Virus record (IMG/VR): IMGVR_UViG_3300036770_007999
Location: 1 to 64,000 of that record
Direction: 5' to 3' (one strand)
DNA from: a virus
Length of the DNA: 64,000 nt
How positions within the stretch are numbered: position 1 is the stretch's first letter; every line of letters begins with the position of its first letter. Under the pieces are notes generated by a model. It saw nothing but the letters and a program-made list of their open reading frames with translations, was not told where the DNA came from and did no database searches. Both the position numbers and the translations under genes were made by a program. This document shows, piece after piece, positions 2,571 through 53,233 of the stretch.

Positions 2571-2735
2571 ATGGCCATGAAACTCTGGGAAGCCACTGTC
2601 CGCCAGCCAGGTCCTGGCACTGCGGAAATTCGGGTGCGTATCGGGGCCGAAACCGCAGAAGAGGCACGCAGGTTGTTGCAACAGTTACACGGTCCAAGAT
2701 CGGTGCCTTATCTGCCCAGACAGGTACCGCAGTAG
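2571..2735 (+). CDS. 54-residue conserved-looking small phage protein
   Basis: The frame starts 2 bases after the phosphoesterase stop and reads MAMKLWEATVRQPGPGTAEI, then IGAETAEEARRLLQQLHGP. The pattern is two beta strands followed by one amphipathic helix, typical of small folded proteins. GGGAG at 2556-2560 is a plausible ribosome-binding site. An internal ATG at 2577 is an alternative start. The function is unknown. Close spacing suggests cotranslation with the phosphoesterase. Its stop codon lies just before the tmRNA acceptor piece. Confidence 0.6.
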   Translation: MAMKLWEATVRQPGPGTAEIRVRIGAETAEEARRLLQQLHGPRSVPYLPRQVPQ

Positions 2736-2739
2736 TAAA

Positions 2740-3036
2740 TAGTAACATCGCTGTATGAAGCGAAGCAAAATGTGTTCTGGACGCGGGTTCGATTCCCGCC
2801 CGGTCCACCATAAGCATGTTCTTTGAGGTCTTGGTCGTTACCAGCGTGGCGAAAACGGCGACAGAGCATGCTTATGATGGGCCGGATCTGGTTTCGACAG
2901 GGCAAGCAGTAGCAGAGTGGACAGCGGGGTAGGCGATGACCCTAAATCAAGCAAAACCACAAACGCCAACGACGAGCGTTTCGCACTGGCCGCTTGAGCC
3001 TGCTGAGGGTGGAAGCCCGAGAAACAGAACTTCCAA
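2740..3036 (+). ncRNA. ssrA: Circularly permuted (two-piece) tmRNA
   Basis: The 3' half comes first: a T arm (GCGGG TTCGATT CCCGC) and acceptor strand CCGGTCC, discriminator A and CCA ending at 2810. An intervening segment follows, closed by CATAAGCATG (2809-2818) and CATGCTTATG (2867-2876). Then comes the 5' half, starting GGGCCGG at 2879, which pairs fully with the acceptor strand at 2800-2806, followed by the tmRNA D-loop-like CTGGTTTCGACAG. The reading frame at 2965-2997 encodes ANDERFALAA and stop TGA. This is the gene order of permuted tmRNAs, whose intervening piece is removed to give two RNAs. The tag matches betaproteobacterial tags. The outer 5' border near 2740 is approximate. Confidence 0.9.
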
Positions 3037-3062
3037 AGCCCGCTCTGGCGGGCTTTTTTTTT
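3037..3062 (+). terminator. Rho-independent terminator after tmRNA
   Basis: A perfect 7-bp GC-rich stem, AGCCCGC/GCGGGCT, with loop TCTG is followed by a run of nine T (3054-3062). It ends the tmRNA transcript. Confidence 0.93.
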
Positions 3063-3132
3063 GACTACAAAATCTCAAGATAAATACTTCTACAGCAACG
3101 CCACATCCTGTGACGTCGGACCAAATCGACGC

Positions 3133-3226: not shown

Positions 3227-4567
3227 TTGGATCTACCTCTCCTGTTGGCCATGCTGAGTGGCTGTGGCATCGGCATAGTGATCGGCCTGTTTCCGGGCTT
3301 TTCGGTATTGGCCGCGATGCTGATCCTGTTTCCGTTCCTGTCTTCGCTGGATGCCATGTCAATACTGGTATTCTATGCGGCACTGATGACTTCGGCCCAG
3401 TACTGCGGCAGTATCACGGCCACATATTTCGGTGTGCCTGGCGAGAACACCAGCCTGGTGGCCAGCAAAATTGGTTATCGCATGCATACCAGAGGTTGCA
3501 CCAACTTGGCTATTGGCAGCGCGTCAGTGAGCAGTTTCTTGGCCTCGGCGGTGGGTCTGGCACTGATGTGGTTGATCTCACAGCAACAACAACTGTTCAG
3601 CGGATTCTATTCGGTCAAGATCCAGTTGGCCGCCATGCTGTTTGTGGCAGTGTTCCTGCTGATCTACAGCGGCAACAGGATTGCGCACAACACCTGGATG
3701 ATACTAGTAGGTGCCCTGCTGGGTGCCATTGGCTCACATCCTATACAGGCCTATTCTCTGACCTTGCAATGGGATCTGTTGGGACCGGGCCTGTCCATAC
3801 CACTGGTGCTGACCTTGTGTTTCGTGATCCCAAATCTTCTGAGATACCAAAACCGCGGCGGTGCCATCACCAACCCGGCGACCCGATCCATAGACCGATA
3901 CTGGACAGCGCTAATCCTGTGCTGGCGCAATCGCTGGTCGGCCTTGCGTGGCAGCGTGATAGGCAGCGTGATCGGACTCATGCCCGGCGTGGCCATCCTG
4001 GCCAGCAGCACCTCCGCCTATGGGGCCGAACGGCGCATAACCACGCGCAACACAGCGCATCTCATGGCCGCGGAAGCTGCCAACAACAGCGCAGTGGTCA
4101 TGTGTCTCATGCCCTTGATCCTGTTTGGTGTGCCTGTGATCGCCAGCGAATCCATGGTACTGAGTCTGTTGTTGCAACAAGGTGTGCAAATCAACTTGCT
4201 ATGGATGCTGCAATCATACACTGCCGACCTATCTCACCTGGACATCTTGATGCTGACATTGATTCCAATCAATGTGCTGATGTTGATCATGGCATGGCCA
4301 TTGTCGCGCGTGTTGATATCGGTGTACAGCCGCATCCCGATGTGGTGTATGACCAGCGTGATATATGTGGTGTTAGCGGCCGTGATCGTGGCAGATTCTC
4401 TTGCCAGATTGAGTTGGCAAACCGATATTGCCAGTTTGATTGTGCTAGTTCCATTATGCTGGATCATGATCCGTCACAGGCACGATGGGTTACCGTTGGT
4501 GTTCAGTTTTTTGTTGGCTGAACACGTGATCGGTTTGTTAGTAGTAATGAGTGATTTATACTTTTAA
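3227..4567 (+). CDS. tctA: TctA-family permease of a tripartite tricarboxylate transporter
   Basis: The 446-residue protein is highly hydrophobic with about ten or more membrane segments. It carries the two TctA signatures: GIVIGLFPGF near residues 16-25 followed by YCGSITATYFGVPGENTS near 59-76, and the second-half repeat GLMPGVAILASSTSAYGAER near 250-270. TctA is the large inner-membrane subunit that moves citrate or other carboxylates with a cation, using a periplasmic binding protein. The start is TTG at 3227 with AAGGA about 8 bases upstream. A solute-binding gene follows 13 bases later. No TctB, the small four-helix subunit, is present. It is slightly shorter than typical bacterial TctA (about 500). 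Confidence 0.85.
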   Translation: MDLPLLLAMLSGCGIGIVIGLFPGFSVLAAMLILFPFLSSLDAMSILVFYAALMTSAQYCGSITATYFGVPGENTSLVASKIGYRMHTRGCTNLAIGSASVSSFLASAVGLALMWLISQQQQLFSGFYSVKIQLAAMLFVAVFLLIYSGNRIAHNTWMILVGALLGAIGSHPIQAYSLTLQWDLLGPGLSIPLVLTLCFVIPNLLRYQNRGGAITNPATRSIDRYWTALILCWRNRWSALRGSVIGSVIGLMPGVAILASSTSAYGAERRITTRNTAHLMAAEAANNSAVVMCLMPLILFGVPVIASESMVLSLLLQQGVQINLLWMLQSYTADLSHLDILMLTLIPINVLMLIMAWPLSRVLISVYSRIPMWCMTSVIYVVLAAVIVADSLARLSWQTDIASLIVLVPLCWIMIRHRHDGLPLVFSFLLAEHVIGLLVVMSDLYF

Positions 4568-4580
4568 AAAGGAAAAAGCA

Positions 4581-5471
4581 ATGAAAAAAATATACAATGT
4601 TGTGGCCGGTCTGCTGTTGCAGATTCCACTGTTGGCCTGGGCACAAGGAGTGACCTACTTCAGCATGACCAATCCAGACACACCTCATCTGTCAATCACG
4701 GCAGGCTGGATCAAGGACATAGAACAAAACATGCCCATAGACTGGAAAAAAGGCCTGGGCTGTGGTGGCAAAAGGAACGTGGTCAATCATGATGGACCCA
4801 TGTTGGTAGAGATACCTTCGGGCCGTATGTGGTCCAGCCTGCATGACGGCAATGAAGACTGCCTGTTTGACTGGCGACCCAAGACCATCGTGAGCCTGTT
4901 TTCCTATCCGTTTGACATGTGTGTCAAGGCCGACAGTGCTATCCAGACCTTCCAAGACTTTGCTGCCGCCACATCGGTCAAGATTGGCTATCCCACTGCC
5001 ACCACCAATGCCTACTGGGTCAATGCCTACAACGCCCATAACCGTACCCAGCATCGTGGTGTGATGTTCCGGAGCAGCGGTCTTGCCCTGCTGGGTCTGT
5101 TGTCCGGTGACATCGATGTGGCCATCATGGCCAATCTCGTGAGCCAGAACCAAAAAAACGCGCAAAACATCAGGTGCTTTGCCACCACAGCACCCAACAC
5201 AGCCACCAGCCTGTCCAAGTTGACCCCTTACATCCCGCAGCAGATCAACGAATTCCAGCAGACTTTCGCGCTGTTCGCCAGCAATATCACTGAGAGTAAT
5301 CTGGCGAGCATCCAAGACTCGGTGCACCGGTCCGTAGTGGCACTCAAAGACAAACTGCCTGCATCAGTGACTTTCGCAGTGGTAGGCAAAAACATCTCAC
5401 CTGATGAGGCCAAGGCTTTTTATCAGACCAATGTGGAAGACCTTGCCGTGGCCACGAGAAAACTGCAATAG
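4581..5471 (+). CDS. tctC: TctC/Bug-type periplasmic solute-binding protein
   Basis: The 296-residue protein begins with a clear signal peptide: MKK, a hydrophobic stretch and a likely cleavage after LLAWA-Q. The mature part has the Bug/TctC layout of two alpha/beta lobes, with VKIGYPTATTN near the middle and SGDIDVAIM later, as in TRAP/TTT binding proteins. Such proteins bind carboxylates in the periplasm and deliver them to TctA. The start at 4581 is chosen because it yields the signal peptide and has AAAGGAAAAA upstream; an upstream in-frame ATG at 4551 would bury it. The TctA stop is 13 bases upstream. Four Cys residues suggest disulphides. Confidence 0.8.
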   Translation: MKKIYNVVAGLLLQIPLLAWAQGVTYFSMTNPDTPHLSITAGWIKDIEQNMPIDWKKGLGCGGKRNVVNHDGPMLVEIPSGRMWSSLHDGNEDCLFDWRPKTIVSLFSYPFDMCVKADSAIQTFQDFAAATSVKIGYPTATTNAYWVNAYNAHNRTQHRGVMFRSSGLALLGLLSGDIDVAIMANLVSQNQKNAQNIRCFATTAPNTATSLSKLTPYIPQQINEFQQTFALFASNITESNLASIQDSVHRSVVALKDKLPASVTFAVVGKNISPDEAKAFYQTNVEDLAVATRKLQ

Positions 5472-9408: not shown

Positions 9409-10686
9409 ATGACCACAGCCACAGCAGATACCACTAACAAAGACGACGCCAAACGCTTTGCCAACCTGATAGGTCCTATGGATGCTAAAGTGGATCGCGA
9501 AGTGCGTGAGATGTTGGTGACAGCCCGGGTGGGCATGTTGCTCCGGGCTTCGTTTTTTGGCAACCTGGCCACCCGACTCAAACTGATCAATGCCGATGAG
9601 TGGTGCGCCACTGCTGCCACCGACGGTAGGAACTTCTATTACAACAGCCGCTTCATCAAGATGCTGAAGCCCAAAGAGATCGAGTTCTTGTTTGGCCACG
9701 AAGTGCTTCATTGTGTGTACGATCACTTTGGTCGGCGCGGTGATCGTGATCCTCAGTTATGGAATATCGCCAATGATTTCTGTGTTAACGGCGATCTCAA
9801 GAAACATCGTGTTGGTGAGTTCATCACTTCAGTACCATGCCTGTATGATCAAAAGTACGAAGGCAAATCGTCAGAAGAGATCTATGATATCCTGTACGAG
9901 AATGCTGAAAAGATCTCCATAGACGATCTCATCGATCGTGTGCTAGATGAGCACATGGATGGCAACGAAGAAAAAGGCGGTGCCGGTAAAAAAGACGGTG
10001 AAGGCCAAGGTCGACCACGGCTCAGTGAAGAAGAAAAGGCCAAGATCCGCGATGAGATCAAAGAAGCCATGCTCAGTGCGGCACAGACCTGTGACGCGGG
10101 CAACCTGCCAGCAGGCATCAAACGCCTGATACAGAATCTTACAGAGCCCAAAATGAACTGGCGCGAACTGCTCCGGATGCAGTTGGAGAGCACCATCAAG
10201 AGTGATTACACTTTTGCCCGGCTCAGCCGCAAAGGCTGGCATCATGAGGCAATCCTGCCCGGCATGCGCACCACTGATGCCATCGACATCGCCATCGGCA
10301 TCGACATGTCGGGTTCGATCTCTGATCAGCAAGGACGAGATTTCCTGGCTGAAGTGCAGGGCATCATGGAAGCATTTGATTCATATCGTATCCATGTATT
10401 ATGCTTCGATACGGAAATCTACAATCCGCGCCAGTATGATTCAGACAATCTGGAAGACATCACAGACTATGAATTGGCTGGTGGCGGCGGTACTGACTTT
10501 GAATGTGTGTTCAATTATCTCAAAGACAATGACATTGAGCCCAAAAAACTTGTGATGTTTACGGATGGTTATCCTTTCGGCTCCTGGGGTGATGAAAACT
10601 ATGCGGATACCGTATGGATCATTCATGGCAATCCCAACCCAGATCCACCGTTTGGTGTGTGGGCCAAGTACGGCAACACCGACTAA
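9409..10686 (+). CDS. VWA-domain protein with metallopeptidase-like HExxH (DUF2201-like), MoxR partner
   Basis: The 425-residue protein has an N-terminal helical domain with HEVLH (97-101) followed by His106, a zincin-like signature. An acidic linker rich in Glu, Lys and Gly follows at about 180-225. A C-terminal von Willebrand A domain carries the metal-ion-dependent adhesion motif DMSGS (299-303) and a later TDG. This domain order matches the DUF2201 putative metallopeptidase/VWA-like family, which often pairs with MoxR ATPases. The pair may remodel or proteolyse a host or phage complex; the target is unknown. AGGAGAG gives a strong ribosome-binding site. A rho-independent terminator follows. 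Confidence 0.8.
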   Translation: MTTATADTTNKDDAKRFANLIGPMDAKVDREVREMLVTARVGMLLRASFFGNLATRLKLINADEWCATAATDGRNFYYNSRFIKMLKPKEIEFLFGHEVLHCVYDHFGRRGDRDPQLWNIANDFCVNGDLKKHRVGEFITSVPCLYDQKYEGKSSEEIYDILYENAEKISIDDLIDRVLDEHMDGNEEKGGAGKKDGEGQGRPRLSEEEKAKIRDEIKEAMLSAAQTCDAGNLPAGIKRLIQNLTEPKMNWRELLRMQLESTIKSDYTFARLSRKGWHHEAILPGMRTTDAIDIAIGIDMSGSISDQQGRDFLAEVQGIMEAFDSYRIHVLCFDTEIYNPRQYDSDNLEDITDYELAGGGGTDFECVFNYLKDNDIEPKKLVMFTDGYPFGSWGDENYADTVWIIHGNPNPDPPFGVWAKYGNTD

Positions 10687-39139: not shown

Positions 39140-42100
39140 TCAAAGTCCGCGTATAAATCTAGCCGCCAGGGTTTCTGTTTCCTGTAGTGGCACACCGTCG
39201 CTGGCAGTATTGATACCGGGCCGGTACCAACTTTCACTACGGCGTACCCTGATACTGACTTGGTATCCTGAGTCTGGTGCTGTGGCAAACACTATGGTCA
39301 CTGGATCACTGCCGGTCACAGTGTAACCCGATGTCTGCAGGATGCCACCAACATAGACCTCTACTGCCTCTACCAGTTCTGTGGAATCTAGATCAGTGAT
39401 CACGATGCTTTCTGCTACAAACAGTGTCTGCGTGCCATCTGCTAGAAAATTGTCAAAAACCACTCTATCCTGATATTCCGCTGGCAACAAATTGCCTAAA
39501 CCGATGTCGTACACGGCCGTACCCGCGGCATGTTCTGCCGCGCCTGTGCCTGCTGTGCCTCGGCGCAGGCCGCTGATGGTGTTGTTCACAGTGTCTCGGT
39601 TGCGATAGGCTATGCGCTCGCCATTGATGGTTATCAATCCAAATATGCCCTGCGGCAGATTGGGTTCACTCAATCGGCTGGCATCCTGCACGTAGATCGT
39701 GTCTCCTTGTGCTGCCAAACTTTGTGCCAGCACTGTGGTGGTGTCTGGTGTGATACGGTATGTGCCTTGAGTACCACGCATGTCTTGGAATATGCGGAAC
39801 GCAAGGGCGTTGGGTACCACACTCTGTGTGAAACTGGTTATGGCCACCACGTCTGCGGGGCCAATCACTGTGCCCAGCAAGATTACCCGGGTTCCTTCTA
39901 CCACGAAGCCTGATCCTTCGAACAGATAGAAACCATTCAAAGTCACTTCAATTCGGCTTGCGTTGACGATGTCACGCCCTGTGTCAAATTCATTGGTCTG
40001 GATCACAGATCCTGTGCCAAAATCAAACGATCCGGGGGTGTCGGACACCGTGGCTTCGTCGTACAGCGTGGTGTCGTAGCCTTCGCTGATCTGGATACCG
40101 GTGGTGGTGGGACCCACAAAAACTTGTGTCAGTATGTTCTGTTCTCGGGTGTCATTGAACGTGGTCACGGTCAGGACGTCGCCAAACAAAGGCAGGATGC
40201 TGCTGCCGGATCGGAACACAAGATTAGTACCAGAGATAAAGTAACCAGCAGCATGGTTGACGGAAATCAAGACTTGTGAGCCTACGTCTGGAAGATCGGT
40301 CAGTGTTATGGTACGATCTGTGCTGCCATCGTCAGGATCCACTTGGTAGTCGACGCCCTGTGTCAAAGGTTCACCGTCTAAGTACACAGATACTTCGTTG
40401 TCTGCTATAAGACTCTGATCGTAGCCACCACGCGTGGGCAAATAGTATTGCAGGCTAGATCCGTCTGCGATATACTCCACACCTTCAGCTGGACGCACCC
40501 GCCGCCCATTGACCTCAACAATGATGTTGACAGGATTGGTACCTTGGAGGCTGTTGTCCAAGGGGAATATCAAGGTGCTGCCGTCACCTATGTCGTTCTG
40601 TTGCACCGGCGCGCTCCAGGATCCCGAACCTGCGCCCAGGGCAGTAACGGCCACATAATCGGTGACAGTGAGCGTTTGACCAAACACGATATTGGTAGCG
40701 AAGTTGCCTGAGGCCGAGAAAGTAAAGTTGTCTGTGGGATCACCGTTGATGAATATGGCAAATTCAGATATGAGGCTGGTCTGTACCGGCACAGTGATGG
40801 TGTTGTTGGGTTGTGTGCCGGTATAGGCCTCGCGGAAGATCTGATTTCCACCGCCCAGACCGTATATCTGTATGGCTATCACATCACCCGCATTGGCACC
40901 TGAGATCACGCGCAGGGTGTGTGCTACCCAATCCACAACATAATCTTGGTCCTCTATCAACTGCACGCCGTTGGTGATGTTGTACACCATGACCATGACC
41001 AACATGTCTACTTGGTCTGCAAAACTTAGATCGGCGTCTGCAGATGTGTATTCATAGTTGATCTGGCCAAGAGCGAATCCATGTCCGTCGCCTAACCAGT
41101 CGCCACCGGGCGTGGTAAACACACGGAAGTCCAGAGTGTCGAATATGGCACCCGGTACCAGTTCTTCAGGCGCATGGCTGGAGTAGGTGTCAACGAAGGC
41201 GCCGCCGGCCACTGTGATGGCATTGGCTGGACCAGTGGTAGGAGGATCACCGTTGTAGGCCGGAGCAGGCAAGGTACCCAGATAGGGATCAGTGAACTCG
41301 CTTTCATAGATCGCATCCAGGATCGCGGGATCGTATGTGGGTTGGCCCTCGGGTCCGATGGAGATGTTATCAAAAGGATTGATGTCGTAGTTGCCCACAT
41401 CAAATCCGGTGTTCTGATTGAAATTGGGACCACTGACCTGCACACCTGGATAGTCTACACCCGATATCAACAAGGCCAGATCCAGTCCAGGTTCGTTCAC
41501 CGTGGGTGCATAAAAGCCCATGGTGCGATCCACACCACTCAGCGTGGCAGCATCTACCAAGGTCCAGTCCTCGGGATCAAAAGTCGCGGTTTCAACTGCT
41601 GTGCTGTCGTCGCTGCTGGCAGACCACACTCGGTCTTGATAGCGTACCTGCGTGCCATTGTCATACTGCACATTGGGCTGCCAATCCACAATGGTGGTCT
41701 GGTATTGATAACGGTCATATCGCAGGGTAGTGGTAAATTCTCTGATCTTTTGGTTGCCCATCACTGCCACGGCCCTGGCACCGGTGCCGTTGCCACCTTC
41801 CAGCGTAATTAACGCTGTGGTCAGATAACCTTCACCAGGAGATACTACGTCTATGGCGATTACCTGTCCTGCGCTGTTGATACGAGCCGTGAGCACAGCA
41901 GGCGTTTCTGCTTCACCGGTGACGATCACCTGTGGCGGTACCGTATAGCCAGATCCCCCGTCTACCACTGCGACAGATTCTATGGTCAGCAGATAGTTCT
42001 GGAACCATTGATTCCATGGCAAGGTCTGCCAGATCGGACTGGTGCTGGGTGTGCTGGATGTAGTGCTCAAGGGATCATCGAGATTGTCGTCGAGCACTGG

Positions 42101-45100
42101 GCTGATAAACAAGTTCTGTGCGGAATCCCAGAAGGCCGGCACATCAAAGTCTGTCACAGTACCATCATACACATCATTGCCCTGATAGATCAGGTTGAAC
42201 TCACGGATCTGAGTATGATAGGGCTTGACTTCCTGGATGTAGTTCAACACGAAATCTTGGTTGTCCTGGCGATATATCTGGAACGGTTGCAGGTTGCGTA
42301 TCACATGATCCACGTCAATCAGGCTGGTCTTTGTGAGCCACAGCGGTGCTACCTGCTCGCTCAGTATGAAGTTGAACATCAGCACTAACAGACGATTGCG
42401 CTCTATGGCAAGATCATCGATGAAGATCTCTTGATTGATGGCCTGAATGATCCTTCGTGTTTCCGTCACGGGTTCTTGATCGAAATACTGCGCATCAAAA
42501 ACTTCCACGTCAAAACCAAACCTACCAATGCTGTAGTCCCAGATCTCCGGTGAGATAGCAATGGTTCCAGATTCTAGGCCTACTCGTGTGTACACACCGT
42601 CTTCAAACACGTAGATCTCGAATTTGCCTTGAGCATTGGCCGTGACCTTGACACTGCTGCCAGGTGCTACCGTGATGGTTTCCAGATCGCTGAAGTTGGC
42701 CACTTCAGCAGCGATCACTGTTAGTGGATCGTAACCAGGAGCATACCAATCAATGTATGACCAGTAGCGCTTGGTGTCATAGTTCTGCACACGCACCAGG
42801 GCCAGTGTGCGGCTGCCGGGGGCGGTACCGGCCTGTACTTCGTAGATGGTCCAGAGGCCATCGTTGGTTGCATCTGATTGCACCAAGTATAGGTAACCAA
42901 CGGGCACCTGTGCCAGATCTTGATAACTCAGTTCCGTATCATTGGCCACGCGTTTGTTCCAGGCACCGCTGCCTGCTGCTGGTTCTGGCTCTTCGCTGTC
43001 CAACAATGGAAAGCGCCTGGTTTCAGCCAAGGGTAAAGTAGCCATCACACGGTTGGCCGCCACCAAATAGTTTTCCAAGGCCAGGAACCTGTTGGCGAAT
43101 AGGCTCTGACGCGGCCGGAACTGGACGCCGTACAGTTCGCTGGGTGGTAGGAATGGATCTGGTACCAGGTTGCCTGCTATATCGACTCCGCAGAAACTGT
43201 CCTGCAGTTTGCGATACAGACTATCGGTAAGGAAGCCGTCGCCGCGTCCTTGCGGTATCAGTTGGTATTCAAGGTGTACAGCATCTTGATTGCGCTGCTG
43301 ATCGTATTCCACGTGCAACACTGTGTCTTCGGCCTGGATATAGGGCAGGCCGTTGTAGATGGCTATGGTGCTGGCATTGATGGGGGCGATGTAGGCGATG
43401 CCGCTGCTGCGCGGTGCTTCGATGTAGCGCGTGATGGTATCTACGCTCAAGGTTTTGCGGGCTGCTCGATCTACTGTGCGAATACCAGTGACCCAGAAGA
43501 AGTAGGTGGTCTGGAATAGACCTTGTGCATCTATGTTGCTGGTCACGCTGTAACTGTTGATGTCGCGCACAGTGCCTGGACCGGTGTACTGCGCAGGCGG
43601 CACTGTGCTGGAGATCCACTGGAACACTTCCACGGTGCTGCCAGGAAACAGTTGTCCCCAGCGCCGGCTGGCATAAACGATGTCATCCTGATTGGGATCG
43701 ATAAATCTGGCGTTGGTGGTGTTCCACCAGATCTGCCCCACCCGTGCCTGCGTCCAGGCATCTCCATAGTTGTTCACAGCACCCACGTTGTAGGCTGCCG
43801 GATCTATGGCGCCGATATAGTCCAGATTCTGACGAACAGCACCCAACACGCGACCCTGCAAGGGATCAAAGAAATCAAAATACTGTTTGCTGGATCCCAG
43901 GAATCGGTCATACATGAACACTGTGTTCAAAAGATCAACATCGACCACAGGAGTCTGCTGCCGGATCGCCTGCCAACTTGGTTCACGTGTGGCGTTCACG
44001 TATTCGATCATGGCTCCATAGTTTGCAGCACTGTCTCCGCTGTCATCACCTGGTGCCCCTACCAGGAGCACGCCGGTGGTATAGTCTATGGCAGAACCAA
44101 ACTGATCCAAGGGCGACAGCGCACTGTCATACAGTTGTTGACCAAACACAAACTGTCCGGGGTTATTCACGCTGGCATTGGCAGCAGGCAAGAAGTCATA
44201 GGTGTAGACCACTCCACTCTGTGTGACCGCATCCAGGAATTCTGTGCTGCGACCATCGAATATGGTAGTGTTGTTGTCAAAGGTACAAGGGTTGAATGCG
44301 CTGCCGTCCGGCGCTCCTACTACCAAGTCCACAGTGCTGTCACTGACAAACACTGTGGTTCCAAAATGGGAGTAGGATTGGGGGACAGGACTCGCGATGG
44401 TCTGCGTGTATACATAGGTTAGAATGCCTAGATCATCAAACACAGTTCCTGTACCAGGCATCACTCGCAGTTTGTTCAAGACTGGTGCAGCATCAAAGTT
44501 AGTCACCGACAGCACCAGTCTAGCCCCTATGATCCTGATCTTGCTGGGTGCCAAGGGTGCAGTGACAAAAGTCACTGTGTTGGTGTCGGGATCGTAGGTG
44601 TAGTTTGCGGGATCTGACTGCAGCACGTTGTCCACATAAACCAAAGTGGTATAGGTGTCTACGGCGGGTGCCGCATACAGTGCACCAGTGGAAAATTCCG
44701 TTGTGATGCCATCGGCATCGTAGTCTAGATCCTGTGTCAAAGACACAGTGACATTGGGGATGGCAGCGTCTCTGATGGCCTGGGCCATCACGGCCGACCA
44801 GTTTGTGGCCTGCCAAAAATCAGTGTCTGTGATGGCTGTGCCCGCGGGTACCGGAACACGAGCACGATACAGGCTTACTCCGCCCAGCAACACATAGTCA
44901 TCCACGGCGTAGGTCAAGGCGCTGTTGTGCGCGGCCACTATGGGCACTACCACGAATCTGTCATTGACACGCAGATAGTCGCCTGGAGACAGCACAGGAT
45001 TTGCCACAGGGCTGGTGGTGATGCCGTACACTCGGCTCTGATTCAGTTGATATTCCACGTGGCCGGCTTCGGGCAGCACGGCACCATCATAGGGTGCGCC

Positions 45101-48100
45101 AATGTAGAGGCTGCAGTCATTGATGCATTGGTCTACTGTGAAGCCATATTGACCACCTTGGAATGGTTCGGCATCTACCAGGGTCTGCACCAGGGAAAAC
45201 TGATTGGTTTCGATCACCAGAGTATCACCCACAGCAATGTCTGTGTCCAGTGTGACTGTGTTGCCGGCGATGCTGAATGTGCCTCCAATGTTGTCCTGTT
45301 CATTGAGCAGGAACTCCCCATTGAGTTTGACATTGATGGGGGCGCCAGGTAACGAAAGGCTCTGTACCGTGGTATAACTTAAAGTAGCCGCATTGGTTAT
45401 CTGGAAAGCCTGCACAGATCGATCGAACACATAGACCTTGCCTTCTTGGGAATCGGAACCAGGGGTGCCGATCAAGACCTGGCGTCCATCGGTAGTGGTG
45501 CTAACACTATGACCAAATCTGGCATCGGCTGCCAGGCCCGGCACAATAATCTCGGCTACTGGTTGCCAATAGTCAGTGGCCCGCACACGGATCTCTGTGC
45601 CCGAGGCCGGTGCTGTCACGAATGTGAGATCCAGTGAACTGCCCTCACCAAAGTCATAGTCATATTTGGGGCGCTGTATCACATTGTCCACATACACGGA
45701 AATGCTGTTGACCGATGTGGCGGAATATATGTTGTCCAAGGGAAAAACCAGGGTGGATCCATCACCGGTAAACGTGGCTGCAGAACGACGCGTAATGGCC
45801 ACAGTCTGTCCTGCAGTGGGTGTAACGAGCAGCACTACCGATGTGGCGTTGACCACGTAGTCCGTATTCAAAGTCTGTAACACATTGCCCACTACCACTG
45901 CCAACTGTGCACTGGTATCCACCACGACATGGTCCACATAGTTGAAACTTGCAGTGGTACCATCGGCCACATACTCCACTGATTGCTGTTGCACATCTAT
46001 GCGTCCATAGGCGTAGACACGGTTGCCTCCGGGAGCACCAATGTACATCCAGCGTTCGTCATTGCTGACAGTAACGCTGTATCCAAATTCGTCTGCGACT
46101 GTGATCTTTTCGTCCTGCGGTATCACCAAGATCTGATGCTTCACAAAGGCGTTAGACGTGGGTGGGTTGAATATCACCAAGGCATAACCATGATTGCTCA
46201 GGCTTTCCGGTGCACCAATCACGGCCCAGGTCTGGTCGCCCATGTCCATGCTAGAGCCAAAGCCTGCAGTGCCGGTGGTCAGCAGTTCGATGATGATGTT
46301 TTCAGAGTAAGCTTGTCCGGCAGTTTTCACATATGAGTAGACCACTCCGCCCGGCAACACACCCGGTGCACCCACCATGGCAGCAAGATTCTGGAAGCCT
46401 TGTGTTACCGCGGTGCCAAATCTGGCATTCTCGATCTGGATTTCTGGTTCGATCACCGTGGCCGGGGCAAAAGGATTGGTTTTTTCCAGCACGGTCCACA
46501 GGTCTTGACCGTTATTGTCCACCCACACTCGCGATCCTGATGACAGTTCACGGCTGTAAGATAGGTTCACCACGTCGCTGGCCTGGGCCACACGTGCGGT
46601 ATCCAGCGAGAATCCTACTCCGGATCCGGTTACTTCGGTCTGGCTGCCTAAGAAAACCAGGTTGATCAAGACTGACTGGAGACCAGGTACAGCGGCCACA
46701 CGATAGGTGCCGTCAATGGTAACATTGAAAAACTTGATAATGAGATAATCATTCACGCGAAGATTGTGTTGCCGCGAGAACTCTACCAATGCTCTGCCAT
46801 CAAGGTTGTCTGACACAGACAGTATACGACCGGGCACTTCACGCACACGATACACGTTCCAATCATGGGGGTTGCTCTTGGCCACCCATATTGTATTGCC
46901 CAGGGCCAAGTCTTGGATTTCTTGGTCAAGGCTGGCAGCAACAGCCACAGGATTTTCCAGATCAAACACTGTGTAATCTACGTCGTCAAGATTCACATAG
47001 CCAGCGGTGGGCAGGCTGTTTTCCGTCACGGGTGTGACTGTGGTAGGCAGCACATCAGGACTGGTAAGTCGTTGGCTGCTTTTCCAGATGTTCTGCAGCA
47101 GCACTGTCTGATCTGCTTCGCTGGATTGATCTGGTTGGATGATCTGGATCAGGCTGGGATCGCTGCGCAACAGGCTCTGATCCAGCAACAGTTCCACATA
47201 GTTGCGATTGGCAGTGGCTCCATAGGTGGCTTTCTGCATGGCCCACAGTTCAAATATGTCATACTGTGCTGTTTCTTTGCCGAGATCTGCAAAACTGAAC
47301 AGTTCTGCGGCCTGGCGTGTACCTTTGGTGCCCAGGAACTGCTGATAGAGATTGACCTGGCTCACATCATCCAAGTTCAAGGCCTGCATGTATTCGCGTG
47401 GTCTGAATCCAATCAAGCCATAACTGAATAGATCTACTTCAGTTTCTAGATTGGCATTGTACACGCTGTAGGCCGTGGCCAATTGATCGCTGGCATTGGC
47501 GGAGTTGGGCAACAGACCTTTCTGTATGTCGTCGTAGTCACTCTTTATCCATTCTGCGTAGTTGAATTCCTGTGAAGGCTGTATGATCCGGCTGGCCGAC
47601 CAGTATTCATTCTTGAACAGCACGATTTCGCCCTTGGCATACACACGATTTGGATCCCATTCTACGATGTTGTCTTCGTTGATCACGAAGCCAGGAGCAT
47701 CCACTGTGCCGTTCCAGTCGCCGGAAATCCAACCTGACACCAGCACACGATTCTGTCTGAGACCGGTAACGGGTTGATAGATCAAGTCAGCGAATGTGCT
47801 GACATTGTCTAGGACCACTAAATGCTCATAGGCTGTGAATCGCAGATTTAGATAATTGATGGTATTGGAACTCAGGCTGGTAGCCCGAAAGGTGTTGTCT
47901 ACACGTTCGATCACGAGATCCGCTGCCGGCAAGGGCTGGCGGTTCTGATTGAGGATGAGATTTTCTGGACGCAGAGTATTGACGCTGTCTACTATGCTGA
48001 GTGGCTGCGTAACAGATACTGAGGTAGCACCTGGGTTGAGATTGATGATGGTGCCAGGTGCCCAGCCTTGACCGCTCCAGTAAAGAAACTCTTGGCACAT

Positions 48101-51100
48101 CTGCAACCAGTTCAGAATGTAACCATTTTCTCTGGTGTCAAAAACAAAACCCTGCCTCTCTAACAACAATCCATAACTGTATAGGAAGTCGCACACACCT
48201 GTTGCTGTCTGGAAGGTATATCCGTAAGGCACCTGCACAACATTATCTGAATGGTCCAGCGCGATGCGCACTGTGGTACCACCGGCTGTGATCGGTATGT
48301 TGTTGCCATTGGGTCGGCTGGCCAAAATCTCAAAATAAGGTCTTGCAGTGCTATAACCATAGACCTGCCAACCCGTATCTGTGGCCTGTACCACTACGCT
48401 GCTGAACACACTCTGATTGAATGGTTGATTCTTGTACAGCAAGATCTGGTAACTTTCATCCGGTAACAGCAGGCTGGTGTTGAGACTGTTGGGGGTAGAA
48501 CGCTCAGTGAAGATCTTGAGATAGCGTTTGTCCGTGAAACCACCCACACGCCAACACAGGCGCATATCAGTATTGGCCAGCGTGGTCTCTAGCAGATCAG
48601 TGCTGTTGGCACCCAACTGTCTATTGTAATCAATGATCCAATCTATGTAACTGGCCCGGCTGACACCATTGCCGTATAGAGGCGCTATCTGTTTGCTGTC
48701 CAGACGATACCTGCCATCCCACACATACTGATCTAGATTTGCATCAAATTTGTAACGATCACGATCCACAAACAGACCAAAGAATTTGGCAGGCTTGGTC
48801 AGAGCCAACAGCCGCATCACAGCAAAAGGCCATGCGGAGGACGACCGCCAAACATTTTCTACTGGACCGTCGTCACCAAAGGTCCAGGATCGGCGGAAAC
48901 TGGTGGTATCATAGTTGCCAGTGGTTACTTCGATGGGCGGCAACAATTCACCTTCAGATCCTGCAGGAATCACACTGAGCAGATCAGGTCTTGCATACTG
49001 TGGCAGGATGTATTCACCGGCGGGATCTCGCACCAGGCCTTGGGCAAGATCTTCCCATAGCACCAAGTTGCCCGATGTATAAGGAGCCGGGCCATAGTAA
49101 TCCGACCACCATGCAGGTTCTTGGCTGAATCCCAACATCTCCCAGGGTTGGGTATTTGGTGCTGTAGTATCATAGAAAAAGTTATAGATACCTCGCCATG
49201 CACCCAACAAGGGCTGACGGTTCAATTTGTTAGCACTCTGGCTGTAATTCCAAGTGAATCCATCTTGTGCGAGATAGGTCTGGCTGGTGTAATCCAACTT
49301 GTTCCAGCCCACCCAACTCAGGAAGTCCGGCGCCAGGATTTCTGTGATTTCTGCCAAGGTATAATCGGTGGTGCGGAACTGTCCTGGAATCACCTCTGCC
49401 TCGCTCAGTGGTATCTCGCTCACGATCTTGATGTTGTTGAAGATCCTGGTCTCAAATTCCAACAGGACATCATCGCGATAATCTCCGAAGGCCACGGTGA
49501 TGGAGCCGTCATGTCCTCGGATCACCAGGGTGGGTTCAAGATAGGTAGTGTCAAGGTACATCTCGGGACGATAAGCAGGATACAGACCCATCTTGCTGGG
49601 TGTGTTGGGCACGAAACTGCCGTAGGTAGCAGAGAACTCGCGGATCTCGATCTGATCACCCACGGCCAATGGCACAGATATATCTATGGTGGCGCTGTCT
49701 ATGCCGACCGTGTATTCGTATCCGCGCACCAGGATGCGACCATTGAGATACACGTTCATGCCTTTGTAATTGCTGCTGGTATAATCGTAGGTTTGTACTG
49801 TATCAAACACTGATGTGCTGATAGGACTGTACACATACACTGTGCTGGTGTAATTTTCTCCAGACGGCATCATGTCTGACCAATAGAATGGGCTTACATT
49901 ATTGCGTCCCAGACCCATCTGGATTATGACATCATCCAAGACCTGGGTAGGTGTGGAGTTGATGAAATCGCCCTGTGCTGCCAGATTCATCATGCGTGCT
50001 TTGAATTTCTGATATTCACGACTGTTGAATTCTATGGCAGCCACTACTTCAAACTGTGGTTGGCGCAGGAAGGTACCGGCCAAGCTCAAGGGCGCGCTGT
50101 GCTGCACGATGTTGTCGCCATAGATCAGGATGTTTCCTAGATCTCTGGTGTTGTTGGCACCGTCAATGGGGCCCTGGATGTTGCGCAGATTCTGCCCGAT
50201 ACTCTGGTAATGATTGCGTATGCTGCCTAGAGTAAATGCGGCAGCATCTTGGTTGATGGCATTGTTTTCGAGGTTTAACGGCACCTGATAGAAGGCAACT
50301 GCGCTGGCCCGATTGCTGATGGCCTGCACTTCAATAATGGTGCCTACGGCCGGTGGTGATGATAGGTCGATCACAGTGCTCTGCCCCACAATGCTGTAGG
50401 CATAATCCGTGGGATCGATGAATTCGGTACCCAGGAAAATCTGCAGAGGAGCAAACACTGAGGTTTCGTCAATGGGCACATCCAGCACCAGAGGTTCATC
50501 ATCCCAGACAAAACGGAACACCTGGCGGCTGCGATTTTGTTGCGCAGCGGGCTGCCAACCTATGAGATCCGAGAAGGTCACACGATCGATGTATTGACGC
50601 ACAAATCCTGTGCTTACAGGTTCTGTAACGCTGACCGCATCTCTCACATACAGGAATGTGTCTGTGTAGAGATAGTTGTCAAACAGGATGTCGCCTACGT
50701 TGTTGAAGTTTAAGAAACGCAGAGCAAAGCCCAGGACCTGATCGGTGATCTGTGTCTCGCCCACGGCATATCCAAACAGCCGGCTGCCTGCAAAGGTAGT
50801 GCTGGGATAAACAGCACTGTCGCCCAGGCTGTGACCTTGCGAATCATAAACATCGAACAAGGGAGTCTGGTTCACAGATGTCTTCTGTTGCGATGGTATC
50901 CAGTTCACACCATCAAACCAAAAACTGAGACCTTGTTGGGTGTTGCCGCTGAGACATACCACAGTCTGATTGATCAGAGCCTGTCCCAGGGGTGCTTCAG
51001 TGAGATTGATGATAGGAATAGAATTAGGATCACCGTCGGGATCGATAAACTCTACCTGGTAAATTTTGTTACGCACATCTGGATCTATATCAGCCGCAAA

Positions 51101-53233
51101 GATAACACGGCTGCCCGTAAGCAAGGTATATCCGTCAGTGCTAAATCCTGTCTGACCATTGATATCACTGAATGCATCTGTAGCAGAGAAATCAATGATA
51201 TCCACGGGCTGTTTACCTTGGGTGCCAAAGTTGAACAGGCGCAGATTAGCACGGAATTCGATGATGGGCCTCTTGCCTCGGGCACGTTCATTGAACACAG
51301 CGATCTGGTTGTTGTAATCTGCTGTGGCCTGTATCACGTCGCGATGGAACCAACGATTTGATCTGCTCCAGGCGTTGCGATCCTGCGCAGCCCGGTTTAT
51401 AGTAATATAGTCAGGCACCTCCGGAGCATTCAACGTCTCATCAAAAGGTGTACTGTCATATCCGTTACTGTCAAAGGGCGTGGTACGGCTCTCAGTGTAG
51501 GTCTCTGGTGTTACAAAGTCAGACACCGGAATCAATCTGATACCGTTGCCCAAGGTAGCGTTCAGCACGCCTTCAACAGGCAATGGTGCTCCTGCAGGAC
51601 CGCCGGCTCCACGATTGGCCAGACTTTCTGCTATTGTGTCATAGATAAATTGATGAAAAGTGTCTGGAGTGTGCGATGCACCAGTCATCTTCTGACCTTC
51701 GTGTACATGGAAAGCGCCGAAGTATGCTTCACCGTCTATGAAACCCACACGGCTATCTATGCCCGGGCCGGTGCCCACGCCCTCTACATAATATTCGAGA
51801 TTTTGAAACTCGGCTGGTTCTGTGAGTCCGCGGAACTGTACCTTGAGGCCGTTGGTAAACGCGACCCCATTGGGGCTGATGTAGTTCTTAGCACCGATGA
51901 TGTCGTCGATGCTGATGGGATTGTTTTCGCTCTGATCCACCAACTGTATGCGGCCGAATATGGCAGGATCGGTGCCATCCTGGTAGTACAGCGTGTCAAG
52001 CACCGCGGTAAGCAAAGGTATCTGCTCAAAAAATCCCGAAGCATTCTTGAACCACTGGGTACTGGCATATTGTTCGCCAAACCGTATGCGAAACTTGGTA
52101 AGGTTAGGTACGGTGCGAATGCTGGCCAGTTGTATGTAAAAATTTCCGTCATTGTCAGGAATGTAATTGATCTGCCACACCGAGTAACGCTGTGCCTGTG
52201 TCGTGATGTCAGTGGTCTGATCAAATAGCGTGGTATCATAACTGCCGATCAATCCGTTGGTAACGATTTCTGGAGGGTTATCTGGCAACAACGGATCAAA
52301 CTGTGATGTAATCTGCCAACCGCCGTCCTGTGCATTGATGATCTGGTTGGTAAAGATCACAGTACGGCCATTGAGATTGGTTATACCGTCTATGCCATTG
52401 GGATTGGCGGATAGGAATTGATCCACATACACATTATTGATCTGATTGAATTTCAAACCAGTCACAAGATCTACAGGAGCCAGTTCGGTGAGTCCAAAAT
52501 AGAAATCCTGGGCGCTCTTCAATGGCACATTGAAGGTCACTGTGCCTAGATCTTCTCCGTTGTTGATCACTCCCAGCACATCTCTGCTGGAGATATTAGG
52601 AGTAGACGGAATGCGTCCATCTACACCTGGATTGGTCTGTATCCAGAATCCGTGACCAGGTTGGTTGACTTGGAATGTGTAATTGCCGCCACGAACCAGG
52701 GTGATTATGGGATTGTTGCCCGCTTCATCACTGAACTGATATGCACCCTGACTGCGAGTTATCTCCCAAGCATCGGTGGTGGGGTAAACTGTGCTACCCA
52801 CATCTACAGAGTCTGGGCCCTGTGGCAACCAGAAATACTGGCTGTAGTTGGTAAATTTATCAAGATCACAGAACGGATCCCAACTGTAGAATTCGCTCTG
52901 CCACAGTCGATCCTGGCGTTCAGTGTCAGCGCCCTGTAGATCCAAAGCATCCAACATGCCCGGATACGTGATAGCATCGCGTGCTCGGTTAGTATCCGGA
53001 GCAAAAAACACCACTCCTGGTTCTAACTGATATTCTGCTCTGGTTTCGGTAGGTTCTGTGACATAATTGTCAGCCGGATTCACCCCCGGGCCTACGCGGC
53101 GCCCTACAAATCCTTGGGTGCGTTTGAGATTGGGTTCCTGTGTGAGTTGATCCAGGGTAGCAGACAGGAACTGCTTGTTGGTGGACGTGCGAAAGATCTC
53201 TGGTAGTAGATCTACTGTTCTGCGGCGGGCCAT
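39140..53233 (-). CDS. Giant virion structural protein, 4697 residues
   Basis: A single uninterrupted frame of 14.1 kb encodes about 510 kDa. The N-terminus (MARRRTVDLLPEIFRTSTNK...) and the WDPFCDLDKFTNYSQYFWLP segment near residues 120-140 match my memory of giant T4-like cyanophage structural proteins. Seven FG-GAP-like repeats lie at about 2265-3080 (for example FGTAVTQG, FGSSMDMG, FGYSVTVS, FGHSVSTT, YGFTVDQC, FGTTVFVS, FGSAIDYT). Other parts repeat a YVDNVLQ...DYxY module and three CBM5/12-like blocks near 1857, 2770 and 3850. The C-terminus has ITINGERIAYRNRDTVNNTI followed by GLRRGTAGTGAAEHAAG. Its start overlaps the gp6 stop by one base. It is likely a baseplate- or tail-associated adhesion scaffold. 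Confidence 0.88.
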   Translation of the reverse strand: MARRRTVDLLPEIFRTSTNKQFLSATLDQLTQEPNLKRTQGFVGRRVGPGVNPADNYVTEPTETRAEYQLEPGVVFFAPDTNRARDAITYPGMLDALDLQGADTERQDRLWQSEFYSWDPFCDLDKFTNYSQYFWLPQGPDSVDVGSTVYPTTDAWEITRSQGAYQFSDEAGNNPIITLVRGGNYTFQVNQPGHGFWIQTNPGVDGRIPSTPNISSRDVLGVINNGEDLGTVTFNVPLKSAQDFYFGLTELAPVDLVTGLKFNQINNVYVDQFLSANPNGIDGITNLNGRTVIFTNQIINAQDGGWQITSQFDPLLPDNPPEIVTNGLIGSYDTTLFDQTTDITTQAQRYSVWQINYIPDNDGNFYIQLASIRTVPNLTKFRIRFGEQYASTQWFKNASGFFEQIPLLTAVLDTLYYQDGTDPAIFGRIQLVDQSENNPISIDDIIGAKNYISPNGVAFTNGLKVQFRGLTEPAEFQNLEYYVEGVGTGPGIDSRVGFIDGEAYFGAFHVHEGQKMTGASHTPDTFHQFIYDTIAESLANRGAGGPAGAPLPVEGVLNATLGNGIRLIPVSDFVTPETYTESRTTPFDSNGYDSTPFDETLNAPEVPDYITINRAAQDRNAWSRSNRWFHRDVIQATADYNNQIAVFNERARGKRPIIEFRANLRLFNFGTQGKQPVDIIDFSATDAFSDINGQTGFSTDGYTLLTGSRVIFAADIDPDVRNKIYQVEFIDPDGDPNSIPIINLTEAPLGQALINQTVVCLSGNTQQGLSFWFDGVNWIPSQQKTSVNQTPLFDVYDSQGHSLGDSAVYPSTTFAGSRLFGYAVGETQITDQVLGFALRFLNFNNVGDILFDNYLYTDTFLYVRDAVSVTEPVSTGFVRQYIDRVTFSDLIGWQPAAQQNRSRQVFRFVWDDEPLVLDVPIDETSVFAPLQIFLGTEFIDPTDYAYSIVGQSTVIDLSSPPAVGTIIEVQAISNRASAVAFYQVPLNLENNAINQDAAAFTLGSIRNHYQSIGQNLRNIQGPIDGANNTRDLGNILIYGDNIVQHSAPLSLAGTFLRQPQFEVVAAIEFNSREYQKFKARMMNLAAQGDFINSTPTQVLDDVIIQMGLGRNNVSPFYWSDMMPSGENYTSTVYVYSPISTSVFDTVQTYDYTSSNYKGMNVYLNGRILVRGYEYTVGIDSATIDISVPLAVGDQIEIREFSATYGSFVPNTPSKMGLYPAYRPEMYLDTTYLEPTLVIRGHDGSITVAFGDYRDDVLLEFETRIFNNIKIVSEIPLSEAEVIPGQFRTTDYTLAEITEILAPDFLSWVGWNKLDYTSQTYLAQDGFTWNYSQSANKLNRQPLLGAWRGIYNFFYDTTAPNTQPWEMLGFSQEPAWWSDYYGPAPYTSGNLVLWEDLAQGLVRDPAGEYILPQYARPDLLSVIPAGSEGELLPPIEVTTGNYDTTSFRRSWTFGDDGPVENVWRSSSAWPFAVMRLLALTKPAKFFGLFVDRDRYKFDANLDQYVWDGRYRLDSKQIAPLYGNGVSRASYIDWIIDYNRQLGANSTDLLETTLANTDMRLCWRVGGFTDKRYLKIFTERSTPNSLNTSLLLPDESYQILLYKNQPFNQSVFSSVVVQATDTGWQVYGYSTARPYFEILASRPNGNNIPITAGGTTVRIALDHSDNVVQVPYGYTFQTATGVCDFLYSYGLLLERQGFVFDTRENGYILNWLQMCQEFLYWSGQGWAPGTIINLNPGATSVSVTQPLSIVDSVNTLRPENLILNQNRQPLPAADLVIERVDNTFRATSLSSNTINYLNLRFTAYEHLVVLDNVSTFADLIYQPVTGLRQNRVLVSGWISGDWNGTVDAPGFVINEDNIVEWDPNRVYAKGEIVLFKNEYWSASRIIQPSQEFNYAEWIKSDYDDIQKGLLPNSANASDQLATAYSVYNANLETEVDLFSYGLIGFRPREYMQALNLDDVSQVNLYQQFLGTKGTRQAAELFSFADLGKETAQYDIFELWAMQKATYGATANRNYVELLLDQSLLRSDPSLIQIIQPDQSSEADQTVLLQNIWKSSQRLTSPDVLPTTVTPVTENSLPTAGYVNLDDVDYTVFDLENPVAVAASLDQEIQDLALGNTIWVAKSNPHDWNVYRVREVPGRILSVSDNLDGRALVEFSRQHNLRVNDYLIIKFFNVTIDGTYRVAAVPGLQSVLINLVFLGSQTEVTGSGVGFSLDTARVAQASDVVNLSYSRELSSGSRVWVDNNGQDLWTVLEKTNPFAPATVIEPEIQIENARFGTAVTQGFQNLAAMVGAPGVLPGGVVYSYVKTAGQAYSENIIIELLTTGTAGFGSSMDMGDQTWAVIGAPESLSNHGYALVIFNPPTSNAFVKHQILVIPQDEKITVADEFGYSVTVSNDERWMYIGAPGGNRVYAYGRIDVQQQSVEYVADGTTASFNYVDHVVVDTSAQLAVVVGNVLQTLNTDYVVNATSVVLLVTPTAGQTVAITRRSAATFTGDGSTLVFPLDNIYSATSVNSISVYVDNVIQRPKYDYDFGEGSSLDLTFVTAPASGTEIRVRATDYWQPVAEIIVPGLAADARFGHSVSTTTDGRQVLIGTPGSDSQEGKVYVFDRSVQAFQITNAATLSYTTVQSLSLPGAPINVKLNGEFLLNEQDNIGGTFSIAGNTVTLDTDIAVGDTLVIETNQFSLVQTLVDAEPFQGGQYGFTVDQCINDCSLYIGAPYDGAVLPEAGHVEYQLNQSRVYGITTSPVANPVLSPGDYLRVNDRFVVVPIVAAHNSALTYAVDDYVLLGGVSLYRARVPVPAGTAITDTDFWQATNWSAVMAQAIRDAAIPNVTVSLTQDLDYDADGITTEFSTGALYAAPAVDTYTTLVYVDNVLQSDPANYTYDPDTNTVTFVTAPLAPSKIRIIGARLVLSVTNFDAAPVLNKLRVMPGTGTVFDDLGILTYVYTQTIASPVPQSYSHFGTTVFVSDSTVDLVVGAPDGSAFNPCTFDNNTTIFDGRSTEFLDAVTQSGVVYTYDFLPAANASVNNPGQFVFGQQLYDSALSPLDQFGSAIDYTTGVLLVGAPGDDSGDSAANYGAMIEYVNATREPSWQAIRQQTPVVDVDLLNTVFMYDRFLGSSKQYFDFFDPLQGRVLGAVRQNLDYIGAIDPAAYNVGAVNNYGDAWTQARVGQIWWNTTNARFIDPNQDDIVYASRRWGQLFPGSTVEVFQWISSTVPPAQYTGPGTVRDINSYSVTSNIDAQGLFQTTYFFWVTGIRTVDRAARKTLSVDTITRYIEAPRSSGIAYIAPINASTIAIYNGLPYIQAEDTVLHVEYDQQRNQDAVHLEYQLIPQGRGDGFLTDSLYRKLQDSFCGVDIAGNLVPDPFLPPSELYGVQFRPRQSLFANRFLALENYLVAANRVMATLPLAETRRFPLLDSEEPEPAAGSGAWNKRVANDTELSYQDLAQVPVGYLYLVQSDATNDGLWTIYEVQAGTAPGSRTLALVRVQNYDTKRYWSYIDWYAPGYDPLTVIAAEVANFSDLETITVAPGSSVKVTANAQGKFEIYVFEDGVYTRVGLESGTIAISPEIWDYSIGRFGFDVEVFDAQYFDQEPVTETRRIIQAINQEIFIDDLAIERNRLLVLMFNFILSEQVAPLWLTKTSLIDVDHVIRNLQPFQIYRQDNQDFVLNYIQEVKPYHTQIREFNLIYQGNDVYDGTVTDFDVPAFWDSAQNLFISPVLDDNLDDPLSTTSSTPSTSPIWQTLPWNQWFQNYLLTIESVAVVDGGSGYTVPPQVIVTGEAETPAVLTARINSAGQVIAIDVVSPGEGYLTTALITLEGGNGTGARAVAVMGNQKIREFTTTLRYDRYQYQTTIVDWQPNVQYDNGTQVRYQDRVWSASSDDSTAVETATFDPEDWTLVDAATLSGVDRTMGFYAPTVNEPGLDLALLISGVDYPGVQVSGPNFNQNTGFDVGNYDINPFDNISIGPEGQPTYDPAILDAIYESEFTDPYLGTLPAPAYNGDPPTTGPANAITVAGGAFVDTYSSHAPEELVPGAIFDTLDFRVFTTPGGDWLGDGHGFALGQINYEYTSADADLSFADQVDMLVMVMVYNITNGVQLIEDQDYVVDWVAHTLRVISGANAGDVIAIQIYGLGGGNQIFREAYTGTQPNNTITVPVQTSLISEFAIFINGDPTDNFTFSASGNFATNIVFGQTLTVTDYVAVTALGAGSGSWSAPVQQNDIGDGSTLIFPLDNSLQGTNPVNIIVEVNGRRVRPAEGVEYIADGSSLQYYLPTRGGYDQSLIADNEVSVYLDGEPLTQGVDYQVDPDDGSTDRTITLTDLPDVGSQVLISVNHAAGYFISGTNLVFRSGSSILPLFGDVLTVTTFNDTREQNILTQVFVGPTTTGIQISEGYDTTLYDEATVSDTPGSFDFGTGSVIQTNEFDTGRDIVNASRIEVTLNGFYLFEGSGFVVEGTRVILLGTVIGPADVVAITSFTQSVVPNALAFRIFQDMRGTQGTYRITPDTTTVLAQSLAAQGDTIYVQDASRLSEPNLPQGIFGLITINGERIAYRNRDTVNNTISGLRRGTAGTGAAEHAAGTAVYDIGLGNLLPAEYQDRVVFDNFLADGTQTLFVAESIVITDLDSTELVEAVEVYVGGILQTSGYTVTGSDPVTIVFATAPDSGYQVSIRVRRSESWYRPGINTASDGVPLQETETLAARFIRGL

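Follow-up and report, generated by a model that had tools for sequence, protein, structure and literature searches.

A conserved and exchangeable RNA module lies between the two halves of a phage permuted tmRNA gene

The locus described here lies in a stretch of viral DNA of 64,000 nucleotides (nt), positions 1 to 64,000 of IMG/VR record IMGVR_UViG_3300036770_007999 (hereafter the window), in which a circularly permuted transfer-messenger RNA (tmRNA) gene encodes its acceptor piece upstream of its coding piece, with an intervening sequence (IVS) between the two. The question that it raises is why a throw-away spacer should be better conserved than the working RNA, and why phages that are unrelated should carry the same fold beside transfer RNAs (tRNAs) and on the stems of ribozymes. 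The tmRNA itself is ordinary for its kind, phage permuted tmRNAs being already known; the novel part of the locus is a conserved structured module in the IVS at 2811-2878. We regard it as probable that the gene specifies a two-piece tmRNA for trans-translation and that its IVS is a swappable structured module, released by tRNA processing and acting in trans as a small phage RNA.

The window contains a complete circularly permuted (two-piece) tmRNA gene at 2694-3059, and chance is excluded. The original prediction, made from the sequence alone, had placed a permuted tmRNA of betaproteobacterial type here, and the Rfam covariance models bear it out, both scoring far above cut-off. RF01850 (beta_tmRNA) reaches 158.2 bits against a cut-off of 84 (E 7e-49), with the full model (positions 1-331) matching 2694-3059, while RF04321 (tmRNA_permuted) reaches 140.4 bits against a cut-off of 47, in a match that begins at 2749. 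ARAGORN likewise calls a permuted tmRNA, at 2718-3088, with the tag ANDERFALAA; a second ARAGORN tmRNA, at 2644-2810 with a tag reading AQTGT..., was rejected as spurious. The positions first proposed for the acceptor strands, the CCA, the coding start and the tag frame all agree with the sequence, and of the proposed extent, 2740-3062, the end point 3062 is right, while the start given by the Rfam model, 2694, is earlier. The parts of the gene are as follows.

2749-2810, plus strand: acceptor (3′ tRNA-like) piece, with T-arm GCGGGTTCGATTCCCGC and encoded CCA (RF04321, RF01850).
2800-2806, plus strand: 3′ strand of the acceptor stem, CCGGTCC, with U70 at 2804 and its partner at 2879-2885 (sequence, model pairing and minimum free energy fold).
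2807, plus strand: discriminator A (A73) (sequence).
2808-2810, plus strand: CCA end (sequence).
2811-2878, plus strand: IVS of 68 nt, predicted to be excised between the CCA and the RNase P site (position between the CCA and G1 of the coding piece).
2808-2877, plus strand: conserved structured RNA module (42-sequence alignment, pair counts, covariance model R1 at 93.1 bits).
2879-2885, plus strand: 5′ strand of the acceptor stem, GGGCCGG, which is the 5′ end of the coding piece (sequence, Rfam models).
2879-3034, plus strand: coding piece, with D-loop motif CTGGTTTCGACAGGG, tag frame and 3′ structured part (full-length RF01850 match).
2965-2997, plus strand: proteolysis tag frame ANDERFALAA, stop TGA (sequence, ARAGORN).
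3035-3062, plus strand: rho-independent terminator, a 9-base-pair stem and T tract (terminator analysis, which places it at 3035-3056).

The acceptor stem is paired at 7/7 positions (2879-2885 with 2800-2806), including the wobble G3·U70 (2881·2804), and G3-U70 is the identity element for alanine-tRNA synthetase. In the minimum free energy fold this stem stacks on the spacer helix, and RNase P is predicted to cleave before 2879. The tag frame opens with Ala and closes with the degradation signal ALAA and a stop, and the nested helices of the coding piece fit RF01850, a model that does not score pseudoknots. In gene order, G3-U70 acceptor stem, T-arm and ALAA-ending tag frame, the gene resembles the betaproteobacterial two-piece tmRNA (RF01850; RF04321, PMC11915505), from which it differs in being phage-borne; against the Rfam consensus spacer, its IVS of 68 nt is a long insertion that bears the conserved module. 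The host lineage is drawn solely from the beta-type model and the tag, and a search of plasmids with the coding piece gave no more than a partial Cupriavidus match.

A permuted tmRNA on a phage had initially been thought rare, a view that does not hold: 53 of the 133 unique phage tmRNA structures reported in 2022 are two-piece (PMC9004378), 79 phage tmRNA sequences are listed elsewhere (PMC11915505), and two partial scans of IMG/VR viral contigs yielded about 30 further permuted tmRNAs, with all 27 tested records exceeding the beta_tmRNA cut-off. (The first contig pattern for permuted tmRNAs returned mostly neighbouring tRNA pairs, about 20 of the 120 rows listed being tmRNAs.) A closely related published case is that of the Methylophilales phage Melnitz and other marine phages (PMC9004378), which also combine a permuted tmRNA with a T4-type phage genome. 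The Melnitz ssrA differs in being of alphaproteobacterial type and under glutamine-riboswitch control, and the passages of PMC9004378 on such tmRNAs describe no IVS module.

The module is built from three helices, P1 (2809-2821 with 2864-2876), P2 (2834-2839 with 2854-2859) and P3 (2844-2845 with 2849-2850), with a near-invariant core at 2822-2863 and 26 invariant columns in an alignment of 42 sequences. Covariation supports this structure. Across the alignment, the 24 pairs are paired in 96.5% of cells and 15 of them have changed on both sides; covariation stands at 0.369 against 0.153 (standard deviation 0.009) in shuffles, a value matched by 0 of 500, nor did any shuffle attain the other covariation measures, and controls with slid partners pair at 53% at most. 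P1, the closing helix, has both-side changes with pairing retained at 12 of its 13 pairs, and because it lies outside the patterns used for searching, its covariation is unbiased by them. Pairing in P2 (GUCGUU/AACGGC) is preserved through changes from G-C to A-U and from U·G to U-A or C-G, while P3 shows one double exchange, and RNAalifold recovers the same helices plus an inner GUC/GAC step. On the tmRNA/tRNA-sense strand there are 69 G·U pairs and 17 A·C, an excess from which it follows that pairing is preserved on the tRNA strand, as RNA. A GGU/ACC pseudoknot in the core is possible, with columns that never vary. A small GGU/ACC hairpin inside the core was dropped as a candidate; it is broken in locus L125, where GUCGUU/AACGGC survives by compensatory change.

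The module also moves between genes. The window spacer is nearly identical to the spacers of tmRNAs with different mature parts, and in a comparison of 44 unique permuted tmRNAs, the pairs that share the module have a median identity of 91% in the IVS and 63% in the coding piece. At one extreme are two loci (L155 and L177) with 96% identity in the IVS and 49% in the coding piece; at the other, L013 and L130 are 98% identical in the coding piece and 51% in the IVS. The window itself shows both kinds of partner, with 99% identity to L131 in the IVS and 82% in the coding piece, and 59% and 88%, respectively, to L127. These discordant identities indicate that spacers are exchanged independently of the tmRNA, as a swappable cassette.

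Beyond tmRNAs, the module recurs in unrelated contexts. Three patterns, the core and relaxed forms of it, found 36, 46 and 63 viral stretches in IMG/VR, amounting to 61 genuine loci in 45 distinct regions, with a single copy per record in 43 of 44 positive records. Among these 45 distinct copies, 24 lie in a tmRNA IVS (22 by script, with L149 added for its tmRNA anatomy and L175 for its Rfam tmRNA matches), two cap stem III of a hammerhead-like core, and 19 are in tRNA arrays or elsewhere. Many of the last group immediately follow a complete tRNA (Lys, Gln, Arg, Asp, Leu, Gly, Asn) at its CCA end, and wherever the locus has tRNAs the module is on their strand (26/26). The flanking DNA falls into 23 approximate groups, so that the carriers are diverse. 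Searches with the IVS returned no match in 50,697 phage records and 72,556 plasmid records at E up to 1, and comparison of the module with 4227 Rfam covariance models gave chance matches only, the best being mir-5882 at 15.6 bits against a cut-off of 95. The core was found in one of 84,980 bacterial species genomes. That match, L175 (contig PWFW01000218.1), is a contig of 3 kb from a metagenome-assembled genome binned as Halanaerobiaceae, with the module in a permuted tmRNA, and is probably a viral contaminant of the bin.

The two hammerhead copies, L143 (from 11662) and L167 (1410-1508), are in phage contigs and cap stem III of hammerhead-like cores whose scores are below the Rfam cut-offs (27.5 against 34 bits and 30.3 against 48.5 bits; E 7.5e-5 and 1.3e-4), with the hammerhead core CUGANGAG...CGAAAC and the GUC site present in both sequences. 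Compared with hammerhead ribozymes in general (RF00163, RF00008), these cores bear the module on stem III; the module lies outside the hammerhead fold itself, and the majority of its copies are without a hammerhead. A ACCTTATGGTGTA.TCGT stretch common to both loci comes after the cores.

The tRNA-array copies open onto a wider set of hairpins. Many have the stem CCATATTGAARYACAYT...ARTGTRYTTCAATATGG, which with any interior of 38-68 nt occurs in at least 120 stretches; the interiors among the matches listed comprise at least 114 distinct sequences in at least 84 similarity groups, including relatives of the tmRNA spacer families. IVS loop families 2 and 4, for example, were first seen only in tmRNA IVSs, and relatives of them were later found inside tRNA arrays (L178; L324 and L259). 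A near-perfect helix of 16 base pairs begins at or near the CCA after 51 of 1,664 phage tRNAs, 38 of them exactly at the CCA, against 3 of 1,664 in shuffled sequence; these tRNAs are from loci not fetched by the stem, but some of the loci had been retrieved by way of the module, and the count of 51 is inflated accordingly. None of 15 tRNA-array hairpin interiors was matched in the phage records at E up to 1e-3. In L178, L181, L198, L120, L225 and others, several hairpins occur per tRNA array and differ in their interiors while sharing an outer stem, and some interiors contain tRNA-like T-arms. One array, in L144, holds a tRNA of Pyl type (cta) and a suppressor-type tRNA (anticodon tta), at 5204-5278 and 10349-10422, which suggests stop-codon recoding. 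We put forward, tentatively, that a large and so far undescribed class of exchangeable RNA cassettes exists in the tRNA arrays and permuted tmRNAs of phages: a CCA-anchored stem would carry dozens of unrelated structured heads, which may be swapped between phages and, as small effector RNAs, set free when tRNA ends are processed. The window spacer is among the most widespread heads found here. Such a class would be new if upheld by a pattern-free search, and no description of it was found in the papers searched, all from the openly licensed literature.

How might the module in the window be used? In the mechanism we propose, a single transcript would fold so that the IVS helix continues the acceptor stem, RNase P would cut before 2879, and 3′-end processing would cut after the CCA at 2810, the products being the two tmRNA pieces and a free hairpin of 68 nt. 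The phage tmRNA would then work with host SmpB, alanyl-tRNA synthetase and proteases in trans-translation; no SmpB gene was found in the 78-kb record, which may be incomplete, and trans-translation would thus need SmpB from the host. In essence, the tmRNA or tRNA would be a carrier, and tRNA-processing enzymes would free the module: the IVS would be one of a pool of swappable modules placed right after the CCA of tRNAs or tmRNAs, sharing their strand and built on stems of one common type, copies in tRNA arrays would be released by the same processing, and a hammerhead would release its own copy. Once freed, the module may act in trans, for example as a decoy or inhibitor of a host factor. A released small RNA is favoured because all of these contexts would yield an RNA with defined ends and one of many structured heads.

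Several points weigh against this reading. Both the cleavages and the release are inferred, as is any trans activity; a trans-acting module might be predicted to occur more often as stand-alone, promoter-driven copies, and the module could act solely in cis. The carrier contigs are uncultivated. Part of the loci were collected with sequence patterns that resemble the module, so the frequencies given above do not estimate those of a population, and the choice of patterns makes the core look more invariant than it is. The flank grouping is single-linkage and includes tRNA similarity.

An action in cis, which we consider unlikely, would make the module a folding or processing element that clamps the acceptor strands to each other and either recruits a nuclease or positions it for the correct maturation of tRNA or tmRNA ends in infection. 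The module always ends a helix that extends the acceptor end or begins at the CCA, different loops on a similar stem are what would be expected if the stem is recognized, and phages do use RNA elements in tRNA 3′ processing, as theta ribozymes illustrate (PMC10879173). However, many tRNAs of the same arrays and many permuted tmRNAs lack the module or have unrelated loops, it is also found on hammerhead stems, where there is no question of maturing a tRNA end, and 26 invariant positions would be needless for a generic clamp.

The theta ribozymes of gut phages, which are likewise small structured RNAs directly at the 3′ ends of phage tRNAs (PMC10879173), also lend some plausibility to an undescribed small self-cleaving ribozyme that frees tRNA or tmRNA ends without protein, as do the compact near-invariant core of about 43 nt and the possible invariant GGU/ACC pseudoknot. 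We find this quite improbable: the module in L143 and L167 caps a hammerhead core that would cleave already, no Rfam ribozyme matches it, and one long helix closes both ends, so that internal cleavage would not directly free a tRNA end. Nor does it look like a theta ribozyme, a fold resembling that of hepatitis delta virus whose cleavage nucleotide is G1 at the tRNA 3′ end (PMC10879173); the module has one long outer closing helix and a U after the CCA, a U that is found in 37 of the 38 CCA-anchored arms as well as in the window. GOLLD and ROOL RNAs (PMC12286853) are also structured noncoding RNAs near phage tRNA clusters; they are hundreds of nucleotides long and form cages, while the module is about 43 nt plus a stem and has no Rfam match.

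There is very little likelihood that the hairpins are mobile elements at the DNA level, with terminal inverted repeats at tRNA 3′ ends and incidental RNA structure. Insertion exactly at the CCA, a common target of mobile DNA, and an inverted repeat common to many contigs would fit such elements, but the helices vary with compensation, with G-U pairs four times as frequent as A-C, the orientation is invariably that of the tRNA strand, and the inner loops are diverse rather than those of one element. Neutral filler, made similar by recent horizontal transfer of whole tmRNA genes, is disfavoured as scarcely credible: phages do exchange genes, and the window and L131 are alike in their mature parts too, yet the median IVS identity stays at 91% when coding pieces have dropped to 49-63%, the helices are kept by compensatory changes, and the same core is found outside tmRNA.

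The genome around the tmRNA is that of a T4-type phage, as first proposed: the linear virus record of 78,136 bases, of which the window is part, encodes a gp55-like late sigma factor, gp46/47-like SbcCD, a portal, and baseplate wedge and hub proteins. Five tRNA genes lie immediately upstream of the tmRNA, and beside this cluster, at 1132-1371 on the plus strand, is a 79-residue match to RNA polymerase omega/Rpb6 (PF01192, E 1.8e-12), an omega-like subunit on a phage. Directly downstream, at 3227-5471 on the plus strand, is a membrane protein of the TctA family of tricarboxylate transporters (PF01970, E 2e-53), followed by a weak TctC-like binding protein (PF03401, below cut-off), TctA/TctC being an unusual auxiliary pair for a phage. 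Further along, a block at 12868-34889 with a sugar epimerase, DegT aminotransferase, carbamoyltransferase, radical SAM/SPASM and further similar-looking open reading frames suggests modification of surface sugars or peptides, and a single open reading frame of 4697 residues occupies 39140-53233 on the minus strand, in the structural region.

Should the module prove to be a small RNA that is released, phages would have in tRNA processing a general means of delivering RNA cargo, as well as a new reason to carry tRNA arrays and tmRNA genes. The covariance model provides a handle for searching metatranscriptomes.
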